DNA of 64,000 bases from assembly GCA_028688905.1 (NCBI GenBank), contig JAQTXH010000004.1:197636-261635 (forward strand), read 5' to 3'. This DNA is from Acidiphilium sp. (GTDB lineage: Bacteria > Pseudomonadota > Alphaproteobacteria > Acetobacterales > Acetobacteraceae). The notes under the pieces are model-generated. The model had not been told where the DNA came from. It searched no databases and saw only the letters and a list, made by a program, of their open reading frames with translations. Of the stretch, positions 8,055-40,083 are shown in pieces. The first letter of the stretch is position 1; each line of letters begins with the position of its first letter. Both the position numbers and the translations under genes were made by a program.

Positions 8055-8180
8055 TAGGGGTCTCCTCCTGATTACAGAAGCCAAGCTAACGGCGGGATCG
8101 CCGGTGCCGAATCGGAGTCTACCGGAGTTTTGCGCCGCACCGCAATCATAGTGTGGCTATGAATAGTTAACAAACAATGA

Positions 8181-8207
8181 ACCTGCCAAGTGAGGCAGGT
8201 TTTTTTG
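8181..8207 (+). terminator. Intrinsic terminator-like hairpin, T-run on plus strand
   Basis: ACCTGCC (8181-8187), loop AAGTGA and GGCAGGT (8194-8200) are followed by a run of T. The T-run is on the plus strand, yet no plus-strand gene precedes it: the flanking YbjN and rpmB genes are both on the minus strand. On the minus strand the downstream tract TTCATTGTTTG is a weaker T-tract, so it may still end the rpmB transcript. Confidence 0.6.
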
Positions 8208-8233
8208 TGATGCCGGCCGTGAAATTGTCGGGT

Positions 8234-18749: not shown

Positions 18750-18858
18750 GGCGCGCTCGTTACGCGATCGGGCCGTGTCGTGCCTAATGAAACTCTGATG
18801 ACAAGCGTTGGATATTTACAAATTCGTGACAGTTTGCGCGCATATTGTTTGCTCGAAA

Positions 18859-18918
18859 TACCTAACCGTCGAGGTACGGTTTGCGATACTGTAAGTTACC
18901 GTTGCATAGGTATGGTTT
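18859..18918. repeat. Two copies of a TACC...GGTAYGGTTT motif
   Basis: Copy 1 has TACC at 18859-18862 and GGTACGGTTT at 18873-18882. Copy 2 has TACC at 18897-18900 and GGTATGGTTT at 18909-18918. The decamers differ at one base and are 36 bases apart. Within copy 1, AACCGT (18864-18869) and ACGGTT (18876-18881) form a perfect inverted repeat. Such a pair, about 40-100 bases upstream of a promoter, looks like binding sites for a dimeric regulator; the regulator is unknown. Confidence 0.5.
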
Positions 18919-18946
18919 AACTCTCTGCAAGAATCGGTAATCACAA

Positions 18947-18972
18947 TTGAGATATGCGCTTGAGATATGCGT
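18947..18972. repeat. Tandem 13-base direct repeat overlapping the promoter
   Basis: TTGAGATATGCGC at 18947-18959 is followed immediately by TTGAGATATGCGT at 18960-18972; 12 of 13 bases match. The second copy includes the proposed -35 element, so a protein bound here would directly affect transcription of the glgE operon. Confidence 0.6.
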
Positions 18973-18989
18973 TCAGAAAATTATATACT
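18960..18989 (+). promoter_or_regulatory. Sigma-70-type promoter of the glgE-treY operon
   Basis: The -35 candidate TTGAGA (18960-18965), an 18-base spacer and the -10 candidate TATACT (18984-18989) make a good match to the housekeeping consensus, in an AT-rich setting. Transcription would start near 18996, about 340 bases before the glgE ATG. No other promoter-like sequence of this quality was seen in the gap. Experimental support is lacking. Confidence 0.5.
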
Positions 18990-19013
18990 AACAATATTTT
19001 AAGGTTGGGCGTC

Positions 19014-19223
19014 TTATTGTGGTGCTTGGTCTTTCCGCGCCGCGACTGGCACCCACCATTTTGTGGTTCCCGCATCGCCTGTAGCTCCTAATGATTTCAA
19101 TATAGCAACAATTCCAACTGCCATCGGTTCTCGACGTCCTCCAGCCTTGGACCCAGCCTTGAACATGGTGCAGGACCTGCCCACATCCTCGAAGTTCGTT
19201 CGAGCCTGCGCCGCGTTCCACAA
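19014..19223 (-). CDS. Doubtful small hypothetical protein antisense to the glgE leader
   Basis: A 69-residue open frame starting at a TTG, with no good ribosome binding site. The translation has protein-like stretches (RTNFEDVGRSCTMFKAG, AILKSLGATGDAG, TTKWWVPVAARKDQ) but matches no family I recognise, and there is no ATG start except internally. It could be a gene fragment left by a transferred element or a chance frame. If transcribed it would be antisense to the operon leader. Confidence 0.2.
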   Translation of the reverse strand: MWNAAQARTNFEDVGRSCTMFKAGSKAGGRREPMAVGIVAILKSLGATGDAGTTKWWVPVAARKDQAPQ

Positions 19224-19337
19224 TTCGTTGCCGCGTTCGAGCGATATTTAGCTGTCCCGGGTTTGGGCTGAAGCGTCGTCAGCCTTGATTTCGCTGTGAA
19301 AAACGAGCCATTACTGGCTTCATGGAGACTGTCCAGT

Positions 19338-22300
19338 ATGGATGACCAATCAGTCATGTCCAGTGCGACGCTGCCAATTTCGGCAACCTCCGCCGATCAA
19401 TTTACGGCTTCGTCGCGACCTAGGCCCTCGGCGCTATATTACATCGATACTGCAACGACCGCTACTGTGGCCTCCTGGACTGACGCCGCCGATCGCGCGG
19501 CAGCGCTCGGTTTCGATGCGATCCTGCTATCCTCCCCTTTCGCGACTGACGGTTCATCTCACGAATTCAATGTCACCAGCCACGCCGTTCTACGTGAGAC
19601 ACTCGGTGGCGGCGCGGTTGATACGGCCCTGGGCCACCTTGCCAGCACCGCCCATGCAAACGACTTGTCGGTGGTTCTCGACGTCTGCATGGATCGGATT
19701 GCCATCACGGCCCCCCTGGCCGAGGCCCACCCCGACTGGTTCGTCCATGCGGACGACGCGGCCGCCTTCTGTTTTCTGTCCGAATCGGATGCGGCGGTGG
19801 ACTGGTGGGACGATCGGTTCGCCGCCTGGCAATCGGTCGGGATCGACGGGTTTCGCTGCGACGCCGCTCACCGGGTTCCTGCCACCGTGTGGGCGCGCCT
19901 GATCCGTGCCGCGCGCTCCCGCAACCCGACATGCCTGTTCATTGCCTCCACATTCGGGGCGACACCGCCGGCAATCGCCGGACTGGCAGGGTGTGGTTTC
20001 GACTTTGCCCTGTCATCGTCATGCTGGTGGGATGGCAGCGCACCCTGGCTGGCCGACGATCTCGATCGCATCGGGGGCATCGGCCACGTTGCCACCCTGG
20101 CAGCCCCTCCCGGCCATACTGGTCCTCTGGCCAATCGCGCCATCGGTCTTGCCGCGTTTCTGGGTCGTCTCTGGGTTCTGAACATTGAGCCGGTTGCCAG
20201 CCAGACCGAAGTGATCACCTCTGCCAACGCGCTGCGCCGGCATCATCGCGCTTTGTTCGAAGGTGCCGCCCGTCTGGTGTCACCGCCTTTTGCGCCGGTT
20301 GCGGTGTTCGCCCGAATTGGCGCACCCGACGGCGGTCTGCTGTTTGCCCTGGCACCGGGTATCCGTTCGATCACTGCAACCCAAATCCGGGCGTGGCTCG
20401 GGGAGAGTTGTGGCGAAATTATACGGCTTCCCGATGCCGCTGCGCCGTCGGTGGACCGGGAAAACGCCTTCACGACCAGTGCGGCGGGTACGCTGCTGCT
20501 TTACACCCAGCCGCCTCGGCCTGTCACGCGGGTGGCGAGCAAGGCGATTCCCGCGAAAAATGCCGTCAAAGCACCGCGCATTGCAATCGAGGCGGTGTCG
20601 CCGGCGGTCGAATCCGGCCGGTTTCCGATCAAGCGCATCGTCGGCGAGCAGATCGTGTTCGAGGCCGACCTGATCTGCGATGGTCACGGCAAACTCGCCG
20701 CCGATCTGCTCTGGCGCGCTGCCGACGAAACCGCATGGCAACGTGCTCCGATGGCGCTGCTCGCCAATGATCGTTGGACCGCGACCCTGCGGCTCGATCG
20801 TCTGGGCCGCCATCAGGTCACGATCGAGGCCTGGATTGACCGTTTCGGGGCCTTTGTCGATGAGATCACCAAAAAACACGCGGCCGGCGTGGACATCGCC
20901 CTTGAACGGGTCGAGGGCGTCGCCCTGATCGAAGCCGCCGCCCACCACGCAACGCCTCCCGATCGGGAGGCCGCCACCGCGCTGCTTGCTCTCCTCGCCG
21001 CGACCCCGGAAGATCAGCGGCTAGCCCTGTTGATCGATCCGGTCACCGTCGCGCTGATGCGCACCGTCGAACCTCGGCATTCGCTCCTCCGGCTGCATCC
21101 GCCATTGCCGGTCGAGGCTGAACGCACCAAGGCAGGTTTTGCCAGTTGGTATGAGATTTTTCCGCGCAGCCAGAGCGGATCTGAAACCCGGCACGGTCAT
21201 TTCGACGATGTTATCGCGCACCTGCCGCGTATCCACGCCATGGGGTTCGATATCCTGTATTTCCCGCCGATCCACCCGATTGGTCATAAAAATCGGAAAG
21301 GCCGCAACAACAGCCTGACCCCAAGTGAAACCGATCCTGGCAGCCCCTATGCCATCGGCGGGCCAGACGGGGGCCATTGCGCACTTCACCCGGAGCTTGG
21401 CAGCTTCGATGATTTTCGCCGCTTGTTAACCGCCGTTGCCGATCACGGCCTGGAACTGGCACTGGATTTTGCCATCCAGTGCGCGCCCGATCACCCATGG
21501 TTGCGCGAACATCCCGAATGGTTCGACTGGCGCCCCGACGGTTCGATCCGCTACGCGGAAAACCCGCCGAAAAAATATGAAGACATCGTCAATGTCGATT
21601 TCTATGCTGAAGGTGCGATGCCCTCGCTCTGGATCGCGCTGCGCGATGTGGTCGCCTTCTGGGTCAAACAAGGGGTGCGCATTTTCCGGGTCGATAACCC
21701 CCACACCAAGCCATTGCCGTTCTGGGAATGGATGATCAACGACATTCGCGCCCGCAACCCGGAGGTCATGTTCCTCGCCGAAGCCTTCACGACGCCAAAA
21801 CTGATGTACCGGTTGGCAAAACTCGGTTTCTCGCAATCCTATACTTATTTCACCTGGCGCAATACCGCCGCCGAGTTGCGTGAATACTTCACTGAATTAA
21901 CGACTATGGCCCCGCGCGAATTCTTCCGCCCCCATCTTTTTGTCAATACGCCTGATATCAATCCGGTATTCCTGCAAACATCGGGCCGCCCCGGCTTTCT
22001 GCTGCGCGCGGCGCTGGCGGCGACGTTGTCAGGCCTTTGGGGCGTATATAATGGCTTCGAATTGTGCGAATCCGCTGCCTTGCCCGGGCGCGAGGAATAT
22101 CTCGACTCCGAAAAATACCAGATCCGCGCATGGGATCATGACCGCCCCGGCAACATCGTCTCCGAGATCACCGCGTTGAACCGCATGCGCCGGCAGAACC
22201 CGGCGTTGCACAGCCATCTCGGTATTACCTTTCTGCCCTGCTCCAACGAACACGTGCTGTATTTCGAAAAAACCAATGCCGACCGCAGCAATGTCATCCT

Positions 22301-22502
22301 CGCCGCCATCAGCCTCGATCCGTTCAACCGCCAGATCGCCGAGATCGAACTACCCCTCTGGCGTTTCGGTCTTGCCGACGATGCCGCCCTGAACGCCGAA
22401 GATCTTGCGCGCGGCGTCGCTTTCGTCTGGCATGGCAAACACCAGATTGTCAGCCTCGATCCACACGAACTGCCTTATTGCATCTGGCGAGTGCGCGCAT
22501 GA
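19338..22502 (+). CDS. glgE: Alpha-1,4-glucan:maltose-1-phosphate maltosyltransferase with N-terminal degenerate GH13 domain
   Basis: Transfers maltose from maltose-1-phosphate to the non-reducing end of a glucan (GH13_3). The chosen ATG at 19338 has a GGAG about 10 bases upstream and gives 1,054 residues; a GTG at 19296 is an alternative. Three parts are seen. Residues about 30-395 are a GH13-like domain with a nucleophile-like D175 in GIDGFRCDAAHRVP but Ser (204) where the acid/base Glu should be. Residues about 426-531 are the DUF3416 beta-sandwich. Residues about 600-1054 are the active domain with nucleophile D786 in FRVDNPHTKP, acid/base E815 in VMFLAEAF and D873 in VNTPDINP. GlgE of actinobacteria is near 670 residues, so the first 400 are extra. 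First gene of the operon; its stop overlaps treS. Confidence 0.92.
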   Translation: MDDQSVMSSATLPISATSADQFTASSRPRPSALYYIDTATTATVASWTDAADRAAALGFDAILLSSPFATDGSSHEFNVTSHAVLRETLGGGAVDTALGHLASTAHANDLSVVLDVCMDRIAITAPLAEAHPDWFVHADDAAAFCFLSESDAAVDWWDDRFAAWQSVGIDGFRCDAAHRVPATVWARLIRAARSRNPTCLFIASTFGATPPAIAGLAGCGFDFALSSSCWWDGSAPWLADDLDRIGGIGHVATLAAPPGHTGPLANRAIGLAAFLGRLWVLNIEPVASQTEVITSANALRRHHRALFEGAARLVSPPFAPVAVFARIGAPDGGLLFALAPGIRSITATQIRAWLGESCGEIIRLPDAAAPSVDRENAFTTSAAGTLLLYTQPPRPVTRVASKAIPAKNAVKAPRIAIEAVSPAVESGRFPIKRIVGEQIVFEADLICDGHGKLAADLLWRAADETAWQRAPMALLANDRWTATLRLDRLGRHQVTIEAWIDRFGAFVDEITKKHAAGVDIALERVEGVALIEAAAHHATPPDREAATALLALLAATPEDQRLALLIDPVTVALMRTVEPRHSLLRLHPPLPVEAERTKAGFASWYEIFPRSQSGSETRHGHFDDVIAHLPRIHAMGFDILYFPPIHPIGHKNRKGRNNSLTPSETDPGSPYAIGGPDGGHCALHPELGSFDDFRRLLTAVADHGLELALDFAIQCAPDHPWLREHPEWFDWRPDGSIRYAENPPKKYEDIVNVDFYAEGAMPSLWIALRDVVAFWVKQGVRIFRVDNPHTKPLPFWEWMINDIRARNPEVMFLAEAFTTPKLMYRLAKLGFSQSYTYFTWRNTAAELREYFTELTTMAPREFFRPHLFVNTPDINPVFLQTSGRPGFLLRAALAATLSGLWGVYNGFELCESAALPGREEYLDSEKYQIRAWDHDRPGNIVSEITALNRMRRQNPALHSHLGITFLPCSNEHVLYFEKTNADRSNVILAAISLDPFNRQIAEIELPLWRFGLADDAALNAEDLARGVAFVWHGKHQIVSLDPHELPYCIWRVRA

Positions 22503-25500
22503 AAAAGAATCACAAGGTCACCATTGCCTCTTTCGCCGAAGGTGATCCCCTCTGGTACAAAGATGCGGTGATCTATCAGGTTCACGTCAAATCCTTTTTT
22601 GACAAAAACAACGATGGCGTTGGCGATTTCGTCGGTCTGATGGAAAAACTCGACTATATTACCGAACTCGGCGTTACCGCAATCTGGTTACTGCCGTTTT
22701 ACCCATCACCCCGCCGCGATGATGGATACGACATCAGCGCCTATCGTGCGGTCCACGAAGAATACGGCTCCCTTGCCGATCTGCGCCACCTGATCGATGC
22801 TGCCCATAGTCGCGATATTCGGGTCATCACCGAACTTGTCATCAATCATACCTCCGACCAGCACCCCTGGTTTCAGCGTGCCCGCGCGGCCAAATCAGGC
22901 TCATCCGCGCGTAACTATTATGTCTGGTCCGACACCGATCATAAATATGACGGCACCCGCGTCATCTTTATAGACACCGAAAAATCGAATTGGACCTGGG
23001 ACGCCGTCGCCGGTGCCTATTACTGGCACAGGTTTTACAGCCACCAACCCGATCTGAATTTCGACAACCCCAGGGTTCTGCACGAAGTTCTCGGTATCAT
23101 GCGCTTCTGGCTCGATCTCGGGGTCGATGGTTTACGGCTCGATGCGGTGCCTTACCTCATCGAGCGGGAGGGAACTAACAACGAAAACCTGCCGGAAACT
23201 CACGTTGTTCTCAAACAGATCCGCGCGGCGATGGATGCGCACGCCCCCGGCCGCATGTTGCTCGCCGAAGCTAACCAATGGCCGGAAGATGCGCAGCAAT
23301 ATTTTGGCGGCGGCGATGAATGCCACATGTCGTTTCATTTTCCGCTAATGCCGCGCATGTATATGGCAATCGCCCAGGAAGATCGCTTTCCGATCACCGA
23401 CATCATGCGCCAGACGCCGGCGATCCCGGAGGTGTGCCAATGGGCAATTTTTTTGCGCAATCACGATGAACTAACGCTCGAGATGGTCACGGACTCCGAA
23501 CGTGATTACCTTTGGGAAACCTACGCCGCCGATCGTCGCGCCCGTCTCAACCTCGGTATCCGCCGGCGGTTGGCTCCGTTACTGGAGCACGATCGTCGCC
23601 GCATTGAACTGATGAACGGATTGCTGTTCTCGATGCCTGGTACTCCCGTGATTTATTACGGTGACGAAATCGGCATGGGCGACAACATTCATCTCGGCGA
23701 TCGCGACGGTGTGCGCACGCCGATGCAATGGTCACCCGATCGCAACGGCGGCTTTTCGCGCGCCAACCCTGCACAACTTGTCCTGCCGCCCATCATGGAC
23801 CCGATCTATGGTTATCAGGCGCTCAATGTCGAAGCCCAGGCCGCCGACCCATACTCACTGTTGAACTGGACGCGCCGCATGCTGGCGGTCCGCAAGCGCC
23901 ACCGTGCCTTTGGCCGTGGCACACTACGTTTCCTGTATCCGGGAAATCGAAAAGTTCTGGCATATCTGCGTGAGTTTACCGATAGCGATGGCCGTGACGA
24001 GGTCATCCTTTGCGTATACAATCTGTCGCGTACCGCCCAGGCTGTCGAACTCGATCTCGTGGCACTGGAAGGTCGCATTCCGCTTGATCTGCTCGGTGGG
24101 TCGCCATTCCCGCCGATCGGCCAACTGCCCTACATGCTCACCTTGCCGCCTTTTGCATTCTACTGGTTCAGTCTGGCGACCGAAGCGGCGATGCCGACCT
24201 GGCGCATCCAGCCGTCCGAACCTTTACCCGAATTTGCAACCCTGGTGATGCGCAGCGGACTTTCCGATCTTCTCAATGCCGAGGCCAGGACAATTCTGGA
24301 GACCGAGAGCCTGCCGAAATACCTCGCCCGCCGCCGTTGGTTCGCGGCCAAGGACCGCAAGATCGATGCCGCCACGCTCGGTCGCGCCGACATTGTCGGC
24401 AGCGAAGCTACCGGCCTGTTGCTCGCCGAAGTCATTGTCGATGTCGGCGGATCGCACCAGACTTATCAGGTGCCGCTTGCTGTTAGTTGGGATGACGAAC
24501 CATCAAATCCAATGGTCCAGCAGCTTGCCCTGGCCCGTATCAGGCGGCACCGCCGTGTCGGGTTCCTGACCGATGCCTTCGCGATCGACGCTCTGCCGCG
24601 TAACATCATCGCCGGTCTCAAGGCGCGCGCTTGTCTCACGATCAAGGATGGTGAAATTCGGTTCCTGCCAACGGCGCAGATCGATGATCTTCCCGATATG
24701 AAGGACGCCGAAATTCGCCGGTTTTCGGCGGAACAATCGAACAGTTCGATGATCGTCGGCGATACCGCGATCATCAAGGTGTTGCGCCGGATCGAGGGGG
24801 GCATTCATCCCGAGACAGAAATGACCCGTTTTTTGACTGAGAACGGCTTCACCAATACACCCGCACTGTTAGGCGAAGTGGTGCGTGTTGACGCCGAAGG
24901 TCAATTTTATACCTTGATCGTTGCGCAGCGTTTCGTACGCAACCAGGGTGATGCATGGCAATGGACGCTCGATTCGCTCACCCGCGCCGTCGACACCGCG
25001 ATCCACGCCGATCTCAATGACGCGGACGAAGCCGATGCCCTCGCCGGCTACCTGCCTTTTGCCGCCGCCATGGGGCGGCGTCTGGCTGAAATGCACGCCA
25101 CTTTGGCAAATCCCGGCACCGCACCCGATTTCAACCCGGAACCGGCCGATAGCGACGACATCGCGCGGTGGGCCAGATCGGCGTACCAGCAGGTGGCGGC
25201 GGCGTTCGCGGCATTGGAGCGCGCGCGTCCACAGGCGGCACCCGCAACGCTCGCCTTGATTGAACAACTGATGCAGAAGCGCCAAGACCTTGAGGCCGCC
25301 TTGCCGACATTAGCAAAGGCGGGCCTGGGAACTTTAAAAACGCGCATTCACGGCGATTTTCATCTCGGCCAGATTCTGGCAGCGCAGGGCGATGCCTATC
25401 TGATCGATTTCGAGGGCGAACCCGCGAAATCTTTGACCGAGCGGCGCGCCAAGGGTTCAGCACTGCGCGATGTCGCGGGGTTGTTGCGCTCGTTCGATTA

Positions 25501-25825
25501 CGCCGGTGCGTCGGTTGAACGCGCAGTACCCATTGCGACCGAAATGGCCCATCAGCGCGCGGCCTCGATGCTTCGACGATTTAGCAGAGACGCTGGTGCC
25601 AGCTTCATCGAAGCCTACCGCGGCATTGCTGCCAGTGCAGCGCATCCATGGATTACGGACGACGCATGGGACGATCTGCTGGCTCTGTTTCTGATCGAGA
25701 AATCGGCCTACGAAATTTGTTACGAAGCAGCAAACCGACCAGCGTGGCTCATTATTCCGTTGACCGGACTGGCGCGACTGGCAAACCAGATCACGACAGG
25801 AGTGAATGATGCCGACAATGGATGA
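22499..25825 (+). CDS. treS: Trehalose synthase fused to maltokinase (TreS-Mak)
   Basis: Bifunctional protein of 1,108 residues. The TreS half (about 1-550, GH13_16) interconverts trehalose and maltose. It has nucleophile D215 in [13 protein letters not shown], acid/base E257 in MLLAEANQ and transition-state His-Asp at 322-323 in FLRNHDEL. The C-terminal half (about 570-1108) is a maltokinase (Pep2 type) that makes maltose-1-phosphate. It has the N-terminal cap [15 protein letters not shown] and the kinase motifs HGDFHLGQ (near 952) and IDFEGEP (near 967). This fusion is known in many bacteria and feeds GlgE directly. The ATG at 22499 overlaps the glgE stop as ATGA; an in-frame start seven codons upstream is less likely. 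Confidence 0.95.
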
Positions 25826-27977
25826 CGCAACGCTCGATAATCTTGCCAACGGGCGTCATGCCGATCCGTTCTCATGCCTTGGTCCCCATTTTTCAGGCAC
25901 CGGAACCATCGTCACGACATTCCAGCCTGGGGCGCGCTGTGTCGATCTGGTGCCCTCGTCGGAGGCCGGATCGGTCGCAATGGCACGCATCCATCCGGCG
26001 GGAATATTCAGCGGTGAGTTGCCTTCAGGCACCGCCTATCATTTTCGGGTGGACTGGGGCGATGCGGTGCAAAACATTCAAGACCCGTACCGCTTTCCGC
26101 CGATCCTCACCGATTTCGATATTCATTTGTTAGCACAGGGTCGCCAGCTTCGCCTGGCCGAATGCCTTGGTGCCATGCCCGTGACGCTCGAAGGTATTCG
26201 CGGCGTCCGGTTTGCGGTTTGGGCGCCCAATGCGCAGCGTGTATCGGTCGTCGGACCCTTCAACACCTGGGACGGCCGCCGCCACCCGATGCGGTTGCGC
26301 TATGAGGTCGGCGTGTGGGAATTGTTCATCCCGGAAATTTTCGTTGGCAGTCTCTATAAGTTTGAAATCCTTTCAGCCGATGGTGCTGTTCTGTTGAAAG
26401 CAGATCCGCTGGCCCGCCAGGTGCAGGGTCCGCCGGAAACAGCCTCCATCGTCGCTGACGGCGCGGTATTTGCCTGGAACGATGACGCCTGGATGCAAAC
26501 GCGCGATGGGCGGAGCGACACAGCGCTTGCGGTCTATGAAGTCCACGCGGCGTCATGGCGACGTCACCCCGATGGCCGGCCGTTACTATGGGGCGAACTG
26601 GCTGACGAACTGATCCCCTACGTTGCGGGGCTAGGCTTCACCCATATCGAATTCATGCCCATTATGGCACATCCGTTCGGGGGGTCATGGGGCTACCAGC
26701 CGCTCTCTCAATTTGCACCGATGCCGGCGCTCGGCACCCCTGCTGAATTCGCCAATTTCATCGATCGCTGCCATCAAGCCGGTGTCGGGGTGATTCTCGA
26801 CTGGGTACCAGCCCACTTCCCGACCGATGCGTTCGGCCTGATCCGGTTCGATGGTACCGCCCTTTACGAACATGCCGACCCCCGCGAAGGGTTTCACCAG
26901 GACTGGAACACCCTGATCTATAACTTAGGGCGCGTCGAGGTTCGCAATTTCTTGGTGGCCAGCGCGTTGTTCTGGCTTGACCGCTTTCACGTCGATGGCA
27001 TCAGGGTCGATGCCGTTGCCTCGATGTTGTATCGTGACTATTCGCGCCAGCCGGGCGAATGGATTCCCAACCGCTACGGTGGCCGCGAAAACCTCGAAGC
27101 GATCAGTTTTTTGCAGGAACTCGCAACCGATATCGAACAATACGCTCCCGGCGCCATGCTGATCGCCGAAGAATCGACCGCGTGGCCCGGCGTCACCCAG
27201 CCGGTTGCCAACAACGGCCTTGGCTTCACGCATAAATGGAATATGGGGTGGATGCACGATACGCTGCGGTATATCGAGCGTGACCCGATCATCCGGCGCT
27301 ATCATCACGACGACATGACATTCGGGTTGATCTATGCGTTCTCGGAACGCTTTGTACTGCCGATCTCGCACGATGAAGTCGTCTATGGCAAACATTCACT
27401 GCTCGAAAAAATGCCGGGCGACTCCTGGCAAAAATTCGCCAATCTACGGGCCTATCTGACGTTCATGTGGACCCAGCCGGGCAAGAAACTGCTGTTTATG
27501 GGCCAGGAGTTCGGTCAATCCAGCGAATGGAATCACGACGTCGGACTGGAATGGCACGATGCGGACATGCCCCTTCACAGCGGCGTGCGGCGTCTGGTGG
27601 TCGACCTCAACCGCTTTTACCGAACGGAGCCGGCCCTGAGCCGCACCGACTTCAAACCTGATGGATTTCGCTGGATCATCGGCGACGACCGTGATCAAAG
27701 CATATTCGCCTGGGTCCGTCAGACCCATGATGATGCCGAAACCATCGTTGTGGTGTCCAACTTTACTCCGGTTCCCCGTCTTGCCTATCGCGTTGGCGTG
27801 CCATCACCCGGTCGTTGGCTCGAACGCCTTAACAGCGACGCCGCAGTCTATGGCGGATCGGATATGGGAAATCTCGGCGGTGCCACGACCGAAGCCAGCC
27901 CGGCCCATGGCATGGCGCAATCGCTGGTCCTCACTTTGCCGCCGCTCGGCGTGCTGATCCTGCGCAAGGACCGCTGA
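25806..27977 (+). CDS. glgB: 1,4-alpha-glucan branching enzyme
   Basis: Introduces alpha-1,6 branches into the glucan made by GlgE. The protein has 723 residues, usual for GH13_9 with both an N1 and a CBM48 domain: CBM48 with [24 protein letters not shown] at about 135-160, then the catalytic barrel. Catalytic groups are the nucleophile Asp near 402 in [12 protein letters not shown], acid/base Glu near 455 in MLIAEEST and His-Asp in [12 protein letters not shown]. The 5' end lies inside treS (20-base overlap). An AGGAG precedes three closely spaced ATGs (25806, 25809, 25818), and the second is best spaced, so the exact start is uncertain by up to four codons. Its stop overlaps glgX as TGATG. 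Confidence 0.96.
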
Positions 27978-30088
27978 TGCCGATCATACCGGCAAAACTA
28001 TCGGCCGGCGCACCCGATCCGCTGGGGTCCCGGTGGGATGGATTCGGCGTCAACTTCGCGGTGTTTTCGGCGCATGCCGACAGGATCGAGCTTTGCATTT
28101 TCGATCGTGGCGGCCGGCGTGAAATCGCGCGCTACGATCTACCCGAATGCACCGACGAGGTCTTTCACGGCTATCTGCCGGATGGGTTGCCAGGACTGAT
28201 CTATGGCTACCGCGCCCACGGGCCATACCAACCCGAGCGTGGCCATCGGTTCAACCCTAACAAGCTGCTGCTTGATCCTTACGCCGAAACCATATTTGGC
28301 GATATCCACTGGTCCGACACGCTCTTCGGCTATCGCGTCGGGGCGGCCAGGGCCGATCTTTCATTTGACCGCCGTGACAGTGCATTAGCCATGCCAAAAG
28401 CAATCGTCGCTGACAACTGCGTGGCGTGGGGCGACCATCGCCGGCCCAACCGGGGCTGGAGCGAAACCGTCATCTATGAGGCGCACCTGCGTGGCTTCAC
28501 GCGCAGCCGGATGGACATTCCACCAGAGCGCCAAGGTACCTTTGCCGCCTTGCAGGACCCGCGGGTGATCGATCATCTGGTGTCGCTCGGAATCACTGCC
28601 ATCGAACTTCTCCCGGTGCATGCCTATTTGCAGGACCGCTTTCTGGTGGAACGCCACCTGACCAACTACTGGGGTTATTCCTCGCTGTCCTTCTTTGCCC
28701 CCCAGCGTGCCTATCTCGCCAACCCCGAGCAGGCGGGCCACGAAATCCGCGCGACGGTCCGGCGGCTGCACGAGGCGGGGATCGAAATTATTCTCGATGT
28801 CGTCTACAACCATACGTGCGAGGGCAACGAGATGGGGCCGACGCTGAGCTGGCGCGGCCTCGACAATGCCAGCTACTATCGGTTGATGCCGGGCCACGAA
28901 CGGCAATTCATCAACGACACCGGTTGCGGCAACACCTTGAACATCTGCCATCCACGCGTTTTGCAGATGGTGATGGATAGTCTGCGGCATTGGGCACAGG
29001 CCTATCAAGTCGACGGATTCAGGTTTGATCTCGGCACCATTCTCGGGCGCGAAATTTCCGGGTTCGATCCCGGTTCCGGCTTTTTCGATGCCATTCGCCA
29101 GGACCCGGTACTTTCCAAGCTCAAGCTCATTTCCGAACCCTGGGATCTTGGGCCAGGCGGCTACCAACTTGGCAATCATCCTCCCGGCTTCTCGGAATGG
29201 AACGCCGCGTTTCGCGACGGGGTGCGCCGTTTTTGGCGGGGCGATCATGGCAAGCGGCCGCAGATTGCGCGAAGACTGATGGGATCACCCGAATTATTCG
29301 ACCGCCGCCGCCGCCGCCCCTTCGCCTCGATCAACTTCCTCACCGCGCACGATGGCTTCACGCTCCACGATCTGGTTAGCTATGTGCATCGGCACAACAT
29401 TGAAAATGGCGAAGACAACCGCGATGGCCACGGCGACAATCTGTCATCGAATTGGGGTGTCGAGGGGGAAACCGACGACCCTATCATCAACGCAACCCGC
29501 GATCGGGTGAAGCGCGCCATGCTCACAACGTTGTTCGTCTCGTTTGGCGTTCCCATGCTTCTGGCAGGCGACGAATTGAACAGAACCCAGCGTGGTAACA
29601 ATAACGCCTATTGCCAGGACAATGAAATATCGTGGGTTGACTGGTCGAGCATCGACGATCACTCGGCGCAATCGCTTATCGATTTCATCGGCGCTCTTGC
29701 GAACGTGCGCCGGCGCTACCCAAGCCTGCGTAGTTCAGTGTTTCGTCATGGTATTGAGATGATCGCGCCGGAAATCGCCGATACATCGTGGTTCGACGAG
29801 CAGGCTGGCGACCTTACTAGTGAGGCCTGGGCGGACCCTAACGCCAGGTTACTGACGCTGCGCCGAGCGACCCATGAACAAAGCGCCGCCGATATCACAA
29901 TCGTCATGCTGAATGCGTCCGACCAGGACCGAAACTTCACTCTTCCGCCCCCTGCCTTCGCATGGATACTTGAAATCGATAGCGCCAATCCGGCCCATGT
30001 GCGAACTCCCTACCCCGATCCCGCTATCATGGTGGCATCCCGTTCCGTCGTCGTGTTCGGTGCCCTGATCGAAGAGGTACCCGAATGA
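27977..30088 (+). CDS. glgX: Glycogen debranching protein GlgX (isoamylase type)
   Basis: Hydrolyses alpha-1,6 bonds of short side chains in partly degraded glycogen. The 703-residue protein has an N-terminal CBM48 (GSRWDGFGVNFAVFSAHADRIELCIFD) and a GH13_11 barrel. Its nucleophile Asp is near 352 in VDGFRFDLGTILGRE, the acid/base Glu near 387 in LISEPWDLGPGGYQLG, and the His-Asp in NFLTAHDGFTLHDLVSY. It starts inside the glgB stop codon and ends overlapping treZ. The linear chains it frees are substrates for MalQ and TreY encoded just downstream. It overlaps in role with the amylo-1,6-glucosidase-type gene at 8.7 kb. Confidence 0.95.
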   Translation: MPIIPAKLSAGAPDPLGSRWDGFGVNFAVFSAHADRIELCIFDRGGRREIARYDLPECTDEVFHGYLPDGLPGLIYGYRAHGPYQPERGHRFNPNKLLLDPYAETIFGDIHWSDTLFGYRVGAARADLSFDRRDSALAMPKAIVADNCVAWGDHRRPNRGWSETVIYEAHLRGFTRSRMDIPPERQGTFAALQDPRVIDHLVSLGITAIELLPVHAYLQDRFLVERHLTNYWGYSSLSFFAPQRAYLANPEQAGHEIRATVRRLHEAGIEIILDVVYNHTCEGNEMGPTLSWRGLDNASYYRLMPGHERQFINDTGCGNTLNICHPRVLQMVMDSLRHWAQAYQVDGFRFDLGTILGREISGFDPGSGFFDAIRQDPVLSKLKLISEPWDLGPGGYQLGNHPPGFSEWNAAFRDGVRRFWRGDHGKRPQIARRLMGSPELFDRRRRRPFASINFLTAHDGFTLHDLVSYVHRHNIENGEDNRDGHGDNLSSNWGVEGETDDPIINATRDRVKRAMLTTLFVSFGVPMLLAGDELNRTQRGNNNAYCQDNEISWVDWSSIDDHSAQSLIDFIGALANVRRRYPSLRSSVFRHGIEMIAPEIADTSWFDEQAGDLTSEAWADPNARLLTLRRATHEQSAADITIVMLNASDQDRNFTLPPPAFAWILEIDSANPAHVRTPYPDPAIMVASRSVVVFGALIEEVPE

Positions 30089-31860
30089 CGCAAGCGAACC
30101 AAAGCCATCCAAACTGGGGCGTGAGTATGCTAACGCCCGATCGTGCCTGCTTCACGATATGGGCACCCGGTTGCAGCACCATGGCGCTCGAAATCGAGGG
30201 GAATCCCCTGCTCCCGATGCGCGCCGCCCCCGATGGATATTTCATGATCGAGGCGGCCTGCACCGCCGGTGCCTGCTACCGCTTTGTGACCGACACGGGG
30301 CAAGCGGTGGCGGATCCCGCATCCCGCCTGCAAGCGGGCGACGTCCACGATGCGAGCGTCGTCGTCGATGCCGTTCCCTACGAATGGCAAAACCCCGACT
30401 GGCGTGGCCGGCCATGGCACGAAGCGGTCATTTACGAACTTCATCCGGGTGCCTGCGGCGGCTATGCCGGAATTGAAACCATGCTGCCCCGGCTTGCAAA
30501 ACTTGGCATTACCGCAGTCGAACTGATGCCCATCGCGGATTTCCCTGGACGGCATAATTGGGGCTACGACGGTGTGCTGCCCTATGCGCCCGACACCGCA
30601 TATGGCACGCCCGACCAACTGCGACACATGATCGATACTGCCCATGGACTTGATCTCATGGTATTTCTCGACGTGGTCTATAATCACTTTGGACCCGACG
30701 GAAATTATCTCCACGCCTACGCGCCGCAATTTTTTCGCGATGACATCAAGACCCCATGGGGCAGCGCGATCGACTACCGGCGTGATCCGGTTAGGCGCTA
30801 TTTCATTGACAATGCAATATATTGGCTAAAAACTTTCCAATTTGATGGCCTGCGCTTCGACGCGGTTCACGCCATTCATGACAACGGCTTTCTTGCAACG
30901 ATGGCAACCGAGATACGCAATGTGATGCCACCGCAACGCCACGTTCATCTGGTCCTGGAAAACGACGATAATAACGCGACGCTGTTGACCGTGGGTGCAT
31001 CCGGACCACTTTACGATGCGCAATGGGCCGATGACACCCACCATTGTTTGCATGTTCTGCTGACCGGCGAACAAAGCGGGTATTATGAAGACTACCCCGA
31101 CGCTGCCGAACAACTTGCGCGCTGCCTGTCGTCGGGCTTCGCCTATCAAGGTGAAGCTTCGCCCCATCGCGACGGTGAGCGCCGGGGTACGCCGAGCGGG
31201 CATCTACCGCCGACCGCCTTCGTTGCCTTCCTGCAAAATCATGACCAGATTGGCAACCGCGCGCTTGGTGAACGCCTGACGACAATGGCCGATCCCCACG
31301 CCTTGCGCGCGGCCATTCTACTGCTGTTACTGTCGCCCCAGATTCCCCTGATCTTTATGGGTGAAGAATTTGGCGAGACGCGGCCATTTCTTTACTTCAC
31401 CGATCACCAATCCGCAGACCTCGCGGAAGCCGTGCGTCAGGGACGCCGGCGGGAATTTGCGAAATTCGCGGCATTTTCTTCTAAAGAGGTGCCACAGAAC
31501 ATTCCGGACCCTAACGATCCTGCCACGTTTACGGCGTCGGTCCCCACGTTTGCCAGCAATCCCCATGCGTCCAGTTGGTTTGAATTCTATGCCGCGCTGC
31601 TTGAAATCCGGCACAAAATCATCATGCCGCGAAGTGTCGGCGCTCGTTCGGGGGGGGCCTCTGCGCTGGGCCGGACCGGGGTGCGCGCGGTGTGGCACAT
31701 GGGCGATGGCATGCGACTAATAATCGCGGCTAATTTCGGCAGTGAGTCCCTTATCTGCGATCTCGGTAACGGTACCGTTCTGGCATCATCGCGGAACTCA
31801 GCCGCAAAAACATCCGAGATTGCCGCGCGCACGGCGATTGCCTGGCTTGAACGCCCATGA
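30085..31860 (+). CDS. treZ: Malto-oligosyltrehalose trehalohydrolase
   Basis: Releases free trehalose from malto-oligosyltrehalose made by TreY. The 591-residue GH13_10 enzyme has an N-terminal CBM48-like domain (CFTIWAPGCSTMALEIEG), then a barrel with HNWGYDGVLPYAPDTAYG (family hallmark), nucleophile Asp near 259 in FDGLRFDAVHAIHD, acid/base Glu near 292 in HLVLENDDNNA and His-Asp in FLQNHDQIGNR. The C-terminal domain is slightly degenerate but complete. The ATG overlaps the glgX stop and its own stop overlaps malQ (ATGA in each case). Confidence 0.95.
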   Translation: MTQANQSHPNWGVSMLTPDRACFTIWAPGCSTMALEIEGNPLLPMRAAPDGYFMIEAACTAGACYRFVTDTGQAVADPASRLQAGDVHDASVVVDAVPYEWQNPDWRGRPWHEAVIYELHPGACGGYAGIETMLPRLAKLGITAVELMPIADFPGRHNWGYDGVLPYAPDTAYGTPDQLRHMIDTAHGLDLMVFLDVVYNHFGPDGNYLHAYAPQFFRDDIKTPWGSAIDYRRDPVRRYFIDNAIYWLKTFQFDGLRFDAVHAIHDNGFLATMATEIRNVMPPQRHVHLVLENDDNNATLLTVGASGPLYDAQWADDTHHCLHVLLTGEQSGYYEDYPDAAEQLARCLSSGFAYQGEASPHRDGERRGTPSGHLPPTAFVAFLQNHDQIGNRALGERLTTMADPHALRAAILLLLLSPQIPLIFMGEEFGETRPFLYFTDHQSADLAEAVRQGRRREFAKFAAFSSKEVPQNIPDPNDPATFTASVPTFASNPHASSWFEFYAALLEIRHKIIMPRSVGARSGGASALGRTGVRAVWHMGDGMRLIIAANFGSESLICDLGNGTVLASSRNSAAKTSEIAARTAIAWLERP

Positions 31861-33848
31861 ATGATGCGACACTCTATCATCTTGCCGAATGCGCCGGATT
31901 ATCACGAACGTGGCACGACGTGTTCGGCACCGGGCACGATGTCACACCGGATACCCTGCGTGCCCTTCTTACCGCCCTTGGTTTGCCTGCCGCATCCGAA
32001 TCGGCGTGCCATGATGCGGTTGCGGTGCTTGAGGCCGAGACGCGCCGGCTGCCAAAACTACTGACCACATCGGTCGATGCCGATATCGTCCTGGAGTACG
32101 CTGGCGGTGTCGTCCGTGTCGTTCTCGATGACGGAACTGCTTACGAATCCAACCCGCATGACATTGGCGATGGTAAGGTCAGGATCGAGCGAATCGCACG
32201 GCCGGGCTACCATCAAATATACCTCGGCGAGCGCGCGATCGACGTCGCGGTCGCGCCGTCGCGGGCTTTTACGGTGCAGGACGCGTTGCACTGCCGTGGG
32301 CGATCCGGCAAAGTCTGGGGTCTCGCGGCTCAGGTCTACGGGCTGGTGCGCAAAAATGACGGTGGTATCGGCGATTTTGCGGCTTTGGCCAGCTTCGTCC
32401 GCAGTGCCGGCGGGCATGGCGCGGATGCGGTGGCGATCAGTCCGATCCACGCGCTCTATGCCAGCGAACCCGGGCACTATGGACCCTATGGCCCTTCGAG
32501 CCGCATCGCCCTCAACCCGGTCTATGCCGGCGTCGATTGTGCGGAGCCGCCATTAACGGCCGACGGATTGATCGACTGGCGGGTGTCCGCACCGTTGCGA
32601 TATGCGGCGCTGCGTGCCGCGTTTGCGCACGATCGGAACAACCCGGATTTCGCGACATTCCAGACGACCGCCCCCCGAGCCATCCGGCTTCACGCCTGGT
32701 TCGAGGCGATCGTCACCCATCAACTGGCCATAGGGGCCGGCAGGGACTGGCGATCGTGGCCCGCGGTGCTTCGTGACCCCACCACCCTCGAAGTCACCAG
32801 TCTGGTGGCCGAATGTCACGAAGACGTTGCGTTTCACCTTTATGCGCAATGGCGGGCCTCAACCAGCCTGAAAGCGGCGCAACGCGCGGCGATCGATGCT
32901 GACATGGCAATCGGCCTGATTGCCGATCTGGCGGTCGGAGCCGATCCTGCCGGGAGCGATGCATGGAGCCGCCCGTCCGAGGTGCTGCGGGGGGCATCGG
33001 TAGGTGCTCCACCGGACGAATTTAATCGCCGGGGCCAGAACTGGGGACTGACCGCATTTTCACCCCGTGGATTGCGCCAAAGCGGCTTCTCCGCGCTACG
33101 CGACATGTTGGCAGCGGCGCTTGAGCCGGCCGGTGGCGTCAGAATCGATCACGCCATGGGCCTGTCGCGACTGTGGATCATTCCCGATGGCGGCGAGGCC
33201 AAGGACGGCTGCTATTTGCGCTATCCGTTCGACGATATGCGGCGGATCGTCATGTTAGAATCGTTTCGTCATCAGGGAATCGTCGTCGCGGAAGATCTCG
33301 GAACCGTGCCGCACGGTTTCCGGGACTCACTGGCTGCAAGCGGACTCGCGGGCATGAGCATCCTGTGGTTCGAGCGTGACGGTGATCGGTTCATCCCGCC
33401 ATCGGCCTGGCGCGCCGACACCGCGGCACTAACAACGACGCACGACTTGCCGACGATTGCCGGTTGGTGGCGCGGCACCGATATCGGATGGCGCGATCGG
33501 CTCGGCCTCGCGGGGGAGGATGCCGGCAAGCGCGCCCATGACCGTGAATGCCTATGGTCAGCCTGTCTGGAGTCCGGGGCAGGGCAGGGGGCGATGCCCG
33601 CGCCCGAGGCTGGCGATGCCATTGCGGATACTCTCGCGGTCCACATTGCCACGGCCGCATCGGATCTGGTCATCCTGCCAATCGAGGATGCGTTGGCACT
33701 GGACGAGCAGCCTAACATTCCAGGTACCATCGATGAACATCCAAACTGGCGCCGCCGCCTTCCGTCTGAGGCAGCGTCCATCCTCGACCAAAGCAAGGTG
33801 GCCATGCGTCTCGCCGCCCTCGACCGAAGGCGCAAACAAATATGCTGA
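31857..33848 (+). CDS. malQ: 4-alpha-glucanotransferase (amylomaltase)
   Basis: Disproportionates malto-oligosaccharides by moving glucan segments between chains (GH77). The 663-residue protein has an N-terminal extension of about 140 residues with a beta-sandwich look, then the GH77 barrel: YGLVRKNDGGIGDFAALASF, YGPYGPSSRIALNPVY (the 250s-loop region), nucleophile Asp near 431 in VRIDHAMGLSRLWIIP, acid/base Glu near 479 in VVAEDLGTVP and HDLPTIAGWW. It sits between treZ and treY, a frequent order in proteobacteria. It can lengthen short chains so that TreY or GlgE can use them. It overlaps treZ by four bases and treY by seven. Confidence 0.95.
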   Translation: MNDATLYHLAECAGLSRTWHDVFGTGHDVTPDTLRALLTALGLPAASESACHDAVAVLEAETRRLPKLLTTSVDADIVLEYAGGVVRVVLDDGTAYESNPHDIGDGKVRIERIARPGYHQIYLGERAIDVAVAPSRAFTVQDALHCRGRSGKVWGLAAQVYGLVRKNDGGIGDFAALASFVRSAGGHGADAVAISPIHALYASEPGHYGPYGPSSRIALNPVYAGVDCAEPPLTADGLIDWRVSAPLRYAALRAAFAHDRNNPDFATFQTTAPRAIRLHAWFEAIVTHQLAIGAGRDWRSWPAVLRDPTTLEVTSLVAECHEDVAFHLYAQWRASTSLKAAQRAAIDADMAIGLIADLAVGADPAGSDAWSRPSEVLRGASVGAPPDEFNRRGQNWGLTAFSPRGLRQSGFSALRDMLAAALEPAGGVRIDHAMGLSRLWIIPDGGEAKDGCYLRYPFDDMRRIVMLESFRHQGIVVAEDLGTVPHGFRDSLAASGLAGMSILWFERDGDRFIPPSAWRADTAALTTTHDLPTIAGWWRGTDIGWRDRLGLAGEDAGKRAHDRECLWSACLESGAGQGAMPAPEAGDAIADTLAVHIATAASDLVILPIEDALALDEQPNIPGTIDEHPNWRRRLPSEAASILDQSKVAMRLAALDRRRKQIC

Positions 33849-36628
33849 GCACCATTCCGCGCGCCACCATCCGGCTGCAATTTCATCAGGGTTTTACCCT
33901 TGATGACGGGGCCGCCGTCATTCCCTACGCGGCCTCCCTGGGCATGAGCCATCTCTACGCATCGCCCATTCTCAAGGCCCGGCCTGGTTCGACGCATGGT
34001 TATGACATCGTGGACCATAATGCGATCAACCCTGAACTCGGCGGCGAGTCCGCCTTGCAGCGCCTGTCCGCTACACTACGGGCACATAACATGGGTCTGA
34101 TCCTCGACATCGTTCCCAATCACATGGGCGTTGGCGGCGGTGACAACACGTGGTGGATGGATGTGCTCGAATGGGGCCGCGCCAGCCGCTATGCGGATGC
34201 GTTCGACATCGACTGGTCCCCGCCCGATCCTGCCTTGCACGGCAAGATCATGGCCCCCTTCCTGGGTGAATTCTACGGTGCGGCCCTGCAATCCGGCGAT
34301 CTTCGCCTAGCCTGCGACGCACCGGCCGGGCGGGTTTCGGTTGTCTATCATGAGCACGTCTTTCCGCTGTCGCCAGCAGGCATGGCCATGGTGCTCAAGG
34401 CCGCACCCCGCCGGTTTGCCGATGCCATCGCCCATTTCACCGCCGCCGCCGACCTTGCGGATCGCCAGGAGATCGCCCGCCCCCTCGCCGAAACCGCGCG
34501 CCACAGGTTTGCCGGCTTGTTAGAAACACCAGACGGTCAGGCAGGGTTGGCGACGGCACTCGCCCGCTATGAGCCGAATTCAACCGAAGGCGAACACCGC
34601 CTGCACGACCTGTTGGAAACCCAGAGCTATCGACTGACGTACTGGCGTGCCGCCGCCGATGAAATCAACTGGCGGCGGTTTTTCGATATCAATACACTGG
34701 CAGGCATTCGGGTCGAAATCCCATGGGTATTCTCGGAAAGTCACAAACTTATCCTTGATCTCTATGCACGTGGGATTATCGACGGGGTGCGGATCGACCA
34801 TGTCGACGGGCTGGCTGATCCACGCGCCTACTGCCGCAAGCTGCGTCGCACCCTGACCGCGGCAGGCCGTGCCCGGCCGCCCGGGGCAGCGTCAGGTCCG
34901 CCCTACATCATCGTCGAAAAAATCCTTGCCCCGCATGAACGCTTGCGCGCCGACTGGCTGACGGACGGCACCACCGGCTACGATTTCATGAACGAGGGTG
35001 CCGCGGTTCTGCATGATCCTGAAGGGGCCAAACCACTTGCCGATCTCTGGCACGATCTGACCGGGCGCAGCGGTGACTTCGACCTTGAAGAGCGCGATGC
35101 GCGGCGGCAGGTGCTGCGCGACAATCTGACGAGCGAATGGAACGCCACGGCGGCGCTGTTGCATCGCCTCGCGGCGGGCGATCTCGCGACCCGTGACATC
35201 ACACTAACCGCCTTGCGCCGCGCCCTCGCGGAACTTCTGATCAATTTCCCGATCTATCGCATCTACGCCGGGGCCGGCGGCAGCACCGATAACGATGCGC
35301 AGACCATGGACTGGGCGCTGGCCCGTGCGCTGCGGAGTTTCCGTGTCGCCGATCGGGGCTTATTGTACCAGATTCGCCACTGGCTGGCCGACCGCCCCCT
35401 GGCGCGCGAGCCGTTGGAGCGTCGCTCTCTGCACCGGCGTGCCATGGTGCGGTTTCAACAACTTTCCGCGCCGGTTGCGGCCAAATCGGTCGAAGACACC
35501 GCATTCTACCGCTATGGTCGCCTGTTGTCGCGCAATGAGGTTGGCAGCACACCCGCCCAATTTTCACTAACGCCGGCGGCGTTCCACGCCGCGCAATCCC
35601 AGCGGGCCGCCAATCTGGCGCACGCGATGCTGGCTACCGCCACCCATGATCACAAACGCGGCGAAGACACCCGGATCCGGCTTGCCGTGCTGTCGGAAAT
35701 CCCCGAGGCTTGGCAGACCGCCCTCGCGCGCTGGATGCGTCTCAACAGCGCGCTGGTACGCGATTTAGACTCGGGTCGCGCCCCAAGCGAGGCCGACGAG
35801 ATCATGCTCTATCAGACTTTGATCGCGGCTTGGCCACTGGGTACATCGGTCCAGACGGCCGACGGGTTCCGTGACCGCGTCTGGGGCTGGTGGGAAAAAT
35901 CGATTCGCGAGGCAAAACTTCGCTCGGAGTGGGCCGCTCCCGACGAAGCCTATGAGGATGCTTGCCGCCAGTTTCTCGATGGAATTTTCGACGTCACCCG
36001 TGCCACGGCGACCTTGGGTGAAATCGTCGCGTTCGCCCAACGCATCGGTCCCGCCGGTGCCCTCAACAGCCTGGGACAGATTGTTCTGAAATACACCGTT
36101 CCCGGTGTGCCCGATCTTTATCAGGGCACCGAATTCTGGGACCAGAGTCTCGTCGATCCGGACAATCGCCGCCCGGTGGATTTTGCCGCGCGTATCACAG
36201 CGCGAACAACATCCGAAACCTGCGAAAACCTCTTGTTGCATTGGCAGGATGGTCGGATCAAGCAGACCGTCATCGCCCAGTTGTTGGCGTTCCGCGCCAA
36301 TAATCGCACCCTGTTCGACCATGGCGATTATACCGCGCTGGAGGGTACCGGCAGCCAGGCATCCCATGTGCTCGCTTTCGCACGAAGTCACGGCGCGGGC
36401 CGCCTCGTCGTCGCCATCTCGCGCCTTGCAACGCCGTTGCTCGGCGAGGCCCCATTGCCGCTCGTTCCCATGGCGGCCTGGGGTGACACGATGCTCCCGT
36501 TGAACGCTACGACGTCCGCCCCATGGCAAAACGTGCTGACCGGGCAGCGGATCGTGCCGGCCGACGGGGGCTTCGGTCTGTCAGATCTGTTCGCGACCAT
36601 GCCGGTCGCTGTGTTGCACCAAGCGTGA
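33842..36628 (+). CDS. treY: Malto-oligosyltrehalose synthase
   Basis: Converts the reducing-end alpha-1,4 bond of a malto-oligosaccharide to the alpha,alpha-1,1 bond of trehalose by internal transglycosylation (GH13_26). The 928-residue protein shows the family start TIRLQFHQGFTLDDGAAVIPY and HLYASPILKARPGSTHGYD. It has LILDIVPNHMGVGGGDN, nucleophile Asp near 319 in GVRIDHVDGLADP, acid/base Glu near 359 in YIIVEKILAPHE and His-Asp in ATHDHKRGEDTR. It is a little longer than typical (about 800-900). It is the last gene of the operon; dnaE follows after 35 bases with no evident terminator between. Confidence 0.95.
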   Translation: MLSTIPRATIRLQFHQGFTLDDGAAVIPYAASLGMSHLYASPILKARPGSTHGYDIVDHNAINPELGGESALQRLSATLRAHNMGLILDIVPNHMGVGGGDNTWWMDVLEWGRASRYADAFDIDWSPPDPALHGKIMAPFLGEFYGAALQSGDLRLACDAPAGRVSVVYHEHVFPLSPAGMAMVLKAAPRRFADAIAHFTAAADLADRQEIARPLAETARHRFAGLLETPDGQAGLATALARYEPNSTEGEHRLHDLLETQSYRLTYWRAAADEINWRRFFDINTLAGIRVEIPWVFSESHKLILDLYARGIIDGVRIDHVDGLADPRAYCRKLRRTLTAAGRARPPGAASGPPYIIVEKILAPHERLRADWLTDGTTGYDFMNEGAAVLHDPEGAKPLADLWHDLTGRSGDFDLEERDARRQVLRDNLTSEWNATAALLHRLAAGDLATRDITLTALRRALAELLINFPIYRIYAGAGGSTDNDAQTMDWALARALRSFRVADRGLLYQIRHWLADRPLAREPLERRSLHRRAMVRFQQLSAPVAAKSVEDTAFYRYGRLLSRNEVGSTPAQFSLTPAAFHAAQSQRAANLAHAMLATATHDHKRGEDTRIRLAVLSEIPEAWQTALARWMRLNSALVRDLDSGRAPSEADEIMLYQTLIAAWPLGTSVQTADGFRDRVWGWWEKSIREAKLRSEWAAPDEAYEDACRQFLDGIFDVTRATATLGEIVAFAQRIGPAGALNSLGQIVLKYTVPGVPDLYQGTEFWDQSLVDPDNRRPVDFAARITARTTSETCENLLLHWQDGRIKQTVIAQLLAFRANNRTLFDHGDYTALEGTGSQASHVLAFARSHGAGRLVVAISRLATPLLGEAPLPLVPMAAWGDTMLPLNATTSAPWQNVLTGQRIVPADGGFGLSDLFATMPVAVLHQA

Positions 36629-36663
36629 TCGCATTTCGGGGGCGGCCCTGCTAATCTATCCCG

Positions 36664-40083
<3,420 letters not shown>

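Follow-up and report, generated by a model that had tools for sequence, protein, structure and literature searches.

A probable merged-type GlgE-pathway operon in Acidiphilium, encoding a GlgE with a degenerate second barrel

Enzymes that build alpha-glucan from trehalose and enzymes that return it to trehalose are encoded in one overlapping run of genes within a 64,000-nucleotide stretch of Acidiphilium sp. DNA (GenBank assembly GCA_028688905.1, contig JAQTXH010000004.1, positions 197,636 to 261,635; hereafter the window), and the question this locus raises is whether the run amounts to a self-contained cycle or to a known pathway that is fed and drained from elsewhere in the genome. The seven genes concerned, glgE, treS-mak, glgB, glgX, treZ, malQ and treY, lie on the + strand at 19338-36628 with all six junctions overlapping. 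Our answer, to which we assign a probability of roughly 0.85, is that they form a merged-type proteobacterial GlgE-pathway operon and not a closed loop, that the direction of flow would be set by enzyme preference and by GlgP, and that the GlgE carries a degenerate copy of its own barrel. The genes, and the two parts of GlgE, are as follows (positions are those of the window).

19338-22502, + strand: glgE, in an open frame of 19296-22502 whose first in-frame ATG is at 19338; named from Pfam and solved-chain matches.
19428-20510, + strand: N-terminal pseudo-GlgE barrel, about residues 31-391, a GH13-like fold with Ser204 at the position of the acid/base Glu and Asp175 at that of the nucleophile.
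20538-22499, + strand: GlgE proper, with domains N/S, a catalytic GH13 barrel (Asp786, Glu815 and Asp873 kept) and a C-terminal domain.
22499-25825, + strand: treS-mak, a fusion of trehalose synthase (trehalose-maltose isomerase) and maltokinase (TIGR02456, 922.8 bits; TIGR02457, 561.9 bits; both above cut-off).
25806-27977, + strand: glgB, glycogen branching enzyme (TIGR01515, 888.3 bits).
27977-30088, + strand: glgX, debranching enzyme (TIGR02100, 966.4 bits).
30085-31860, + strand: treZ, maltooligosyltrehalose trehalohydrolase (TIGR02402, 674.5 bits).
31857-33848, + strand: malQ, 4-alpha-glucanotransferase (TIGR00217, 275.8 bits; PF02446).
33842-36628, + strand: treY, maltooligosyltrehalose synthase (TIGR02401, 979.4 bits).

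A preliminary description, made from the window alone, had reported seven genes on one strand with an overlap at each junction and both arms of trehalose-glucan metabolism in one tightly packed cluster, and the open reading frame coordinates and family models agree with it on both counts. The glgE stop and the treS-mak start share an ATGA at 22499-22502 (start ATG at 22499), treS-mak and glgB overlap by 20 bases (25806-25825), glgB and glgX by a single base at 27977, glgX and treZ (30085) and treZ and malQ (31857) by 4 bases each, and malQ and treY by 7 bases at 33842. For TreS, maltokinase, GlgB, GlgX, TreZ, MalQ and TreY alike, one or more curated NCBIfam models score above cut-off. The NCBIfam scan gave no model at cut-off for the window GlgE, which is identified by Pfam PF11896 and PF21702, both passed, and by the match of its residues 401-1049 to solved Streptomyces GlgE chains (E ~1e-163). 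The cluster thus holds the GlgE-pathway set, that is a PF11896 maltosyltransferase with its catalytic Asp/Glu/Asp, a fused TreS-maltokinase and GlgB, together with the complete TreY-TreZ route set of treY, treZ and the debranching enzyme GlgX. The predicted activity of the window GlgE, from its sequence, is the conversion of maltose 1-phosphate to glucan.

The cluster is not a chance arrangement, because its gene order recurs in relatives. PF11896 is present in 27 of the 60 genomes examined, the window's own included, and in 8 of 12 congeners. Stretches were taken from all 26 other genomes that bear it, and eight of these loci have the seven genes in exactly this order on one strand; six are truncated at contig ends or fragmentary (L037, L038, L056, L057, L059 and L060), and in the remaining 12 at least one of glgX, treZ, malQ and treY is missing from the stretch (that of L058 ends inside malQ). 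Beyond these relatives, a TreS-Mak alignment scan of named genomes gave 591 confirmed matches, and the loci of the best 80, which are not a random sample, include 15 with the exact order, spread by record title over alpha-, beta- and gammaproteobacteria. The coupled set had been described as less often seen, a view that these counts weaken, as does the publication of the pathway logic for Pseudomonas aeruginosa, treated in part of one study (PMC8084333).

Several of the loci differ in detail. One of the eight exact-order loci (L051, relative G011) has an IS256-family transposase gene at 7037-8218 on the - strand inside treS-mak, splitting the maltokinase part, with the rest of the operon kept. 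In L046 (G030) the treS-mak position at 9837-11417 has only a 526-residue frame beside glgE, perhaps the maltokinase part without TreS. In five of the 12 loci with missing genes otsA lies on the same strand, and two loci (L035 and L054, from G033 and G013) have no treY or treZ in the stretch and show otsA following malQ in the same orientation, so that the trehalose-making module looks as if it were interchangeable there. In the gammaproteobacterial bin L135, glgC lies 154 bases before the glgE of a seven-gene set, glgA is on the opposite strand, and the GlgE is without the N-terminal barrel; a gene of the ADP-glucose route thus sits next to a GlgE operon there.

How carbon might move through such a set can be laid out from the gene identities. 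TreS-Mak, GlgE and GlgB would carry trehalose by way of maltose and maltose 1-phosphate to branched alpha-glucan, and GlgX, TreY, TreZ and MalQ would return alpha-glucan chains to trehalose or maltose. It had been proposed that these arms close on themselves, that is, that a self-contained trehalose-glucan cycle makes glucan without ADP-glucose and that one transcript supplies both directions at fixed ratios, as translational overlap might suggest. All seven enzymes of both arms are indeed present and overlapping, and the statement on which the proposal leaned, that glgA, glgC, glgP, otsA and otsB are absent, holds for the 64 kb window; for the genome (3.41 Mb in 26 contigs, 99.99% complete by estimate) it does not. 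A full glgP-glgC-glgA cluster lies at 62-68 kb of the same contig, about 150 kb from the operon, which starts near 217 kb on the contig; the search returned one GlgA (E 6e-71), one GlgC (E 2e-146, above cut-off) and one glycogen phosphorylase. The preliminary description had itself named glgA and glgC as genes to look for elsewhere, and a complete, active glgC-glgA route as what would count against it, and by gene content that route is there. ADP-glucose-free glucan is no longer a necessary conclusion, because glgC and glgA are present in the genome, and adjacent otsB and otsA on another contig (C10; otsA E 1e-115) offer another source of trehalose. OtsAB usually starts from UDP-glucose, and a supply free of ADP-glucose is to that extent possible in principle. 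Against this, glgA immediately precedes glgE, in the same orientation, in 8 of the best 80 named loci (five of exact order and three with glgA-glgE-treSmak-glgB), which ties such operons to GlgA. With glgC-glgA and otsB-otsA in the same genome the closed cycle is not a necessity, and we regard it as very unlikely.

There is reason to think instead of an open pathway, the merged-type operon put forward above, with entry and exit points encoded elsewhere. The separate glgC-glgA route would supply carbon as linear glucan, otsA-otsB would supply it as trehalose, and GlgP would release it as glucose 1-phosphate. What sets the direction of flow is most likely the preference of TreY and TreZ for linear chains, together with GlgP, which is encoded apart from the operon and would have to act before GlgX debranches, as proposed for P. 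aeruginosa; GlgP would on this analogy be a gate. The branching step may connect the two glucan routes. A search with PF00128 (GH13) gave eight matches in the genome, of which the one outside the operon is a second GlgX (contig C18, L143 475-2697, - strand, 1043 bits to TIGR02100), and the classical glycogen route may depend on the operon for its branching enzyme because the sole GH13 branching enzyme found in the genome is the operon's glgB.

The co-occurrence of the two routes has precedent. Defluviicoccus is an alphaproteobacterium. Part of a study of it describes glgC-glgA and treS-pep2-glgE routes in one bacterium, as in the window genome, a likeness of gene presence, as operon order is not reported in that part of the study (PMC9041414). 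Both GlgC and GlgE routes are given for 4% of bacterial genomes in a passage of a study of Chlamydiae (PMC7935935).

The closest described system is that of P. aeruginosa, in which, according to part of the study cited above, the enzymes have been characterised and the trehalose-glucan loop is discussed together with the question of a futile cycle (PMC8084333). All seven operon gene products of the window, the TreS-maltokinase fusion included, are shared with strain PAO1 as described in that part, which places glgE, treS/pep2 and glgB in one predicted operon and glgA, treZ, malQ, treY and glgX in another, and gives PAO1 no glgC and no otsA or otsB (PMC8084333). The window differs in having one cluster, with glgC and otsAB elsewhere in its genome. 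Another likeness is found in Burkholderiales (for example Oxalicibacterium flavum L090 and Achromobacter aloeverae L131), with the same seven-gene order and an N-terminal extension of GlgE; those clusters are headed by glgA, whereas the glgA of the window genome is about 150 kb off with glgP and glgC.

The separate operons of P. aeruginosa invite a different division of the window cluster, into two neighbouring units with their own promoters, glgE-treSmak-glgB for making glucan and glgX-treZ-malQ-treY for making trehalose. In 48 of the best 80 named loci that strand shows only glgE-treSmak-glgB within the stretch, and several relatives' clusters are, as noted, without glgX, treZ, malQ or treY. 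In the window, however, glgB and glgX overlap by a base across the very junction at which the units would part, and no internal promoter-like site on the + strand of the cluster is better than 9 of 12. Internal promoters or terminators had been named beforehand as what would split the set, and over 18500-37000 the counts lie close to shuffled expectation, with 10 promoter-like sites against 7.0 +/- 2.5 and 19 terminator-like sites against 15.8 +/- 4.1; these counts agree with a single unit, and a stem inside glgX, taken up below, tells against it. The overlaps and the absence of clear signals suggest one transcript across the seven genes, and the division into two units seems to us rather unlikely.

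The part of the operon that is less expected was missed in the preliminary description and lies at the N-terminus of its first product. About 400 residues precede GlgE proper, and over residues 1 to ~400 no Pfam family was found at cut-off. A profile of 15 such regions nonetheless has GlgE as its best match among solved structures (E 2e-20), and in profile-profile comparison with hhalign (at most 30 sequences per family) the extra domain matches the GlgE part of the same proteins at E 1.1e-21 and GlgEs without the extension at E 2.8e-17, against 1.4e-9 for TreS and 3.2e-9 for TreZ and weaker values for TreY, GlgB, GlgX and MalQ. An AlphaFold2 model of residues 1-405 has a mean pLDDT of 82.7, and the first twelve Foldseek matches to it are all GlgE structures, at a TM score of about 0.7 by query length. 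Profile, model and fold match agree on a (beta/alpha)8 barrel related to GH13, and on both profile and fold evidence the extra domain has GlgE's own barrel as its closest relative. For the full-length GlgE model the pLDDT is 81.1 and the pTM 0.61, and the relative placement of the two barrels is therefore uncertain.

The catalytic residues have fared very differently in the two barrels. An alignment of 49 members took in the window, every one of the 41 named loci that have the extension, and seven of the 26 relatives. All three residues are kept in GlgE proper in all 49, while in the extra domain the acid/base position is Glu in a single member and most commonly Trp (35 of 49), the nucleophile position is Asp in 12 (the window and 11 others), and the two carboxylates never occur together. 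An Arg two residues before the nucleophile position is kept in 44 of 49, a conserved SSxxWWDxRxxW-like stretch is present, and the string AWTPG, which occupies the acid/base site and is found in 25 members, is absent from the window. It might be argued from the confidently modelled GH13 fold, the Arg and the Asp of those 12 members that the N-terminal domain is itself catalytic, a GH13 enzyme of another specificity, but an acid/base Glu replaced in 48 of 49, most often by Trp, and a pair of carboxylates complete in none make this highly improbable. Most simply read, the GlgE barrel was duplicated long ago and its N-terminal copy is now a pseudoenzyme. It has not been released from constraint: the ratio of nonsynonymous to synonymous change is 0.14-0.35 in the extra domain against 0.07-0.15 in GlgE proper for six of seven pairs (the seventh is saturated, and the values are rough, synonymous change being high in most pairs), and the extra domain evolves faster than GlgE proper yet under purifying selection.

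The best 80 named loci include 78 complete GlgEs, of which 41 carry 380 or more residues ahead of GlgE proper; the other 37 are without the extension, and by record title 36 of these are Pseudomonas or Stutzerimonas (a sample that does not include PA2151) and one is a gammaproteobacterial bin. The solved GlgE chains that match the window protein have 663-723 residues, and residues 1-400 of the window protein lie outside all of their alignments; GlgE proper matches Streptomyces coelicolor GlgEI chains at E ~1e-163 and Mycobacterium GlgE at 1e-131 to 1e-139 (PDB 3zss, 4u33 and 5cgm), and the catalytic Asp/Glu/Asp of the actinobacterial enzymes is kept in it. Across 200 genomes sampled from the phylum, the window's own included, there were seven domain matches at E <1e-80, all in frames of 1076-1226 residues, and weaker matches (down to E 1e-15) in frames of at least 660 residues; no stand-alone extra domain was seen in these genomes, with at most eight candidates scored per genome, so that one could escape. 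A limited search of the open-licence PMC literature found no account of the domain, which is no proof of novelty.

Its role is most likely to hold glucan chains or to stabilise the enzyme assembly, as far as function can be judged from fold and conservation. Glucan binding is a guess that we make because of the conserved tryptophans and because a secondary glucan-binding site in Streptomyces GlgE helps polymer extension, as described in part of one study (PMC5076824). A bolder proposal is that a tandem barrel duplication in alphaproteobacteria, Burkholderiales and xanthomonads left a fused pseudoenzyme that binds or threads the growing glucan and would set both how chains are shared with GlgB and how they avoid TreY and TreZ, which would make it the missing control of the cycle; this is speculative, and we think it doubtful.

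Several observations weigh against the merged-operon reading or parts of it. A terminator-like match with a 9-pair stem lies inside glgX on the + strand (29206-29226) and could interrupt the proposed transcript. The argument for GlgP as a gate was made for another species, and the window genome has, in its second GlgX and OtsAB, further routes that are missing from PAO1 or not reported for it. OtsA falls below its curated NCBIfam cut-off (534.6 of 564.85), though above Pfam's. GlgB gives weak scores with PF00128 (27 and 25 bits); the search that left the operon's glgB as the only one could therefore have passed over a second, divergent GlgB, and a branching enzyme of the GH57 type was not searched for. 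Finally, the window and 11 others of the 49 members retain an Asp at the nucleophile position, so that some chemistry in the pseudo-barrel is conceivable.

The boundaries of the operon add three further features.

19158-19186, + strand: two-box promoter-like motif, CTTGAA-N16-CCCACAT, candidate operon promoter upstream of glgE.
18960-18989, + strand: best sigma-70-like match, TTGAGA-18-TATACT (10 of 12), in AT-rich sequence; weak.
36664-40083, + strand: dnaE, DNA polymerase III alpha subunit (NF004226, 1419.9 bits).

The preliminary description had the cluster begin at 18750, which takes in a leader of about 590 bases before glgE (18750-19337) with a GC content of 0.495, and of 0.39 over 18780-19020, against 0.605 in the operon; a metallophosphoesterase gene beside this leader points away from glgE, and Rfam gave no match at gathering scores over 18600-36800. 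Counted from the predicted start of glgE, the two-box motif lies at -119 to -180 both in the window and in six of the eight GlgE-bearing congeners. It could be aligned in these seven upstream regions, two of which are near identical, and the window's upstream sequence outside the motif is unlike that of the six congeners. When 104 upstream regions were scanned with one mismatch allowed, the motif was not found upstream of glgE in G008, and the sole other match, in G002, lies past the predicted start and looks like chance. The sigma-70-like site at 18960, the best consensus match, was set aside as the operon promoter, as it was not seen in the aligned relatives.

The two boxes resemble the consensus of the heat-shock sigma factor RpoH, a CTTGAA-like -35 box and a CCCCAT-like -10 box. 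The exact two-box motif occurs once in the genome and a looser pattern three times, with no regulon visible; no heat-shock gene was recognised by eye among the frames of the two other stretches with a pattern match.

At the other end, 35 bases downstream of treY and on the same strand, begins dnaE, also missed earlier. Because no terminator-like site was found in the gap (36629-36664) and the adjacency of treY and dnaE recurs in three congeners (G003, G006 and G010), the transcript may continue past treY into dnaE, an essential replication gene.

The operon, closely packed and functional in appearance, is then a known pathway in an arrangement common to many proteobacteria, and its history here is a reminder that the absence of a gene from a 64 kb window is not its absence from a genome. 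Less expected, and worth following, is the degenerate second barrel of GlgE. If the pseudo-barrel is what it appears to be, many proteobacterial GlgEs form a large group whose architecture is unlike that of any solved GlgE matched here or of the sampled Pseudomonas-type GlgEs. How the synthesis and the breakdown of glucan are kept separate is called largely unknown in a passage of a 2024 review (PMC11046441), and with the pseudo-barrel one could then test directly how a single glucan is made and broken down without the two processes running together.

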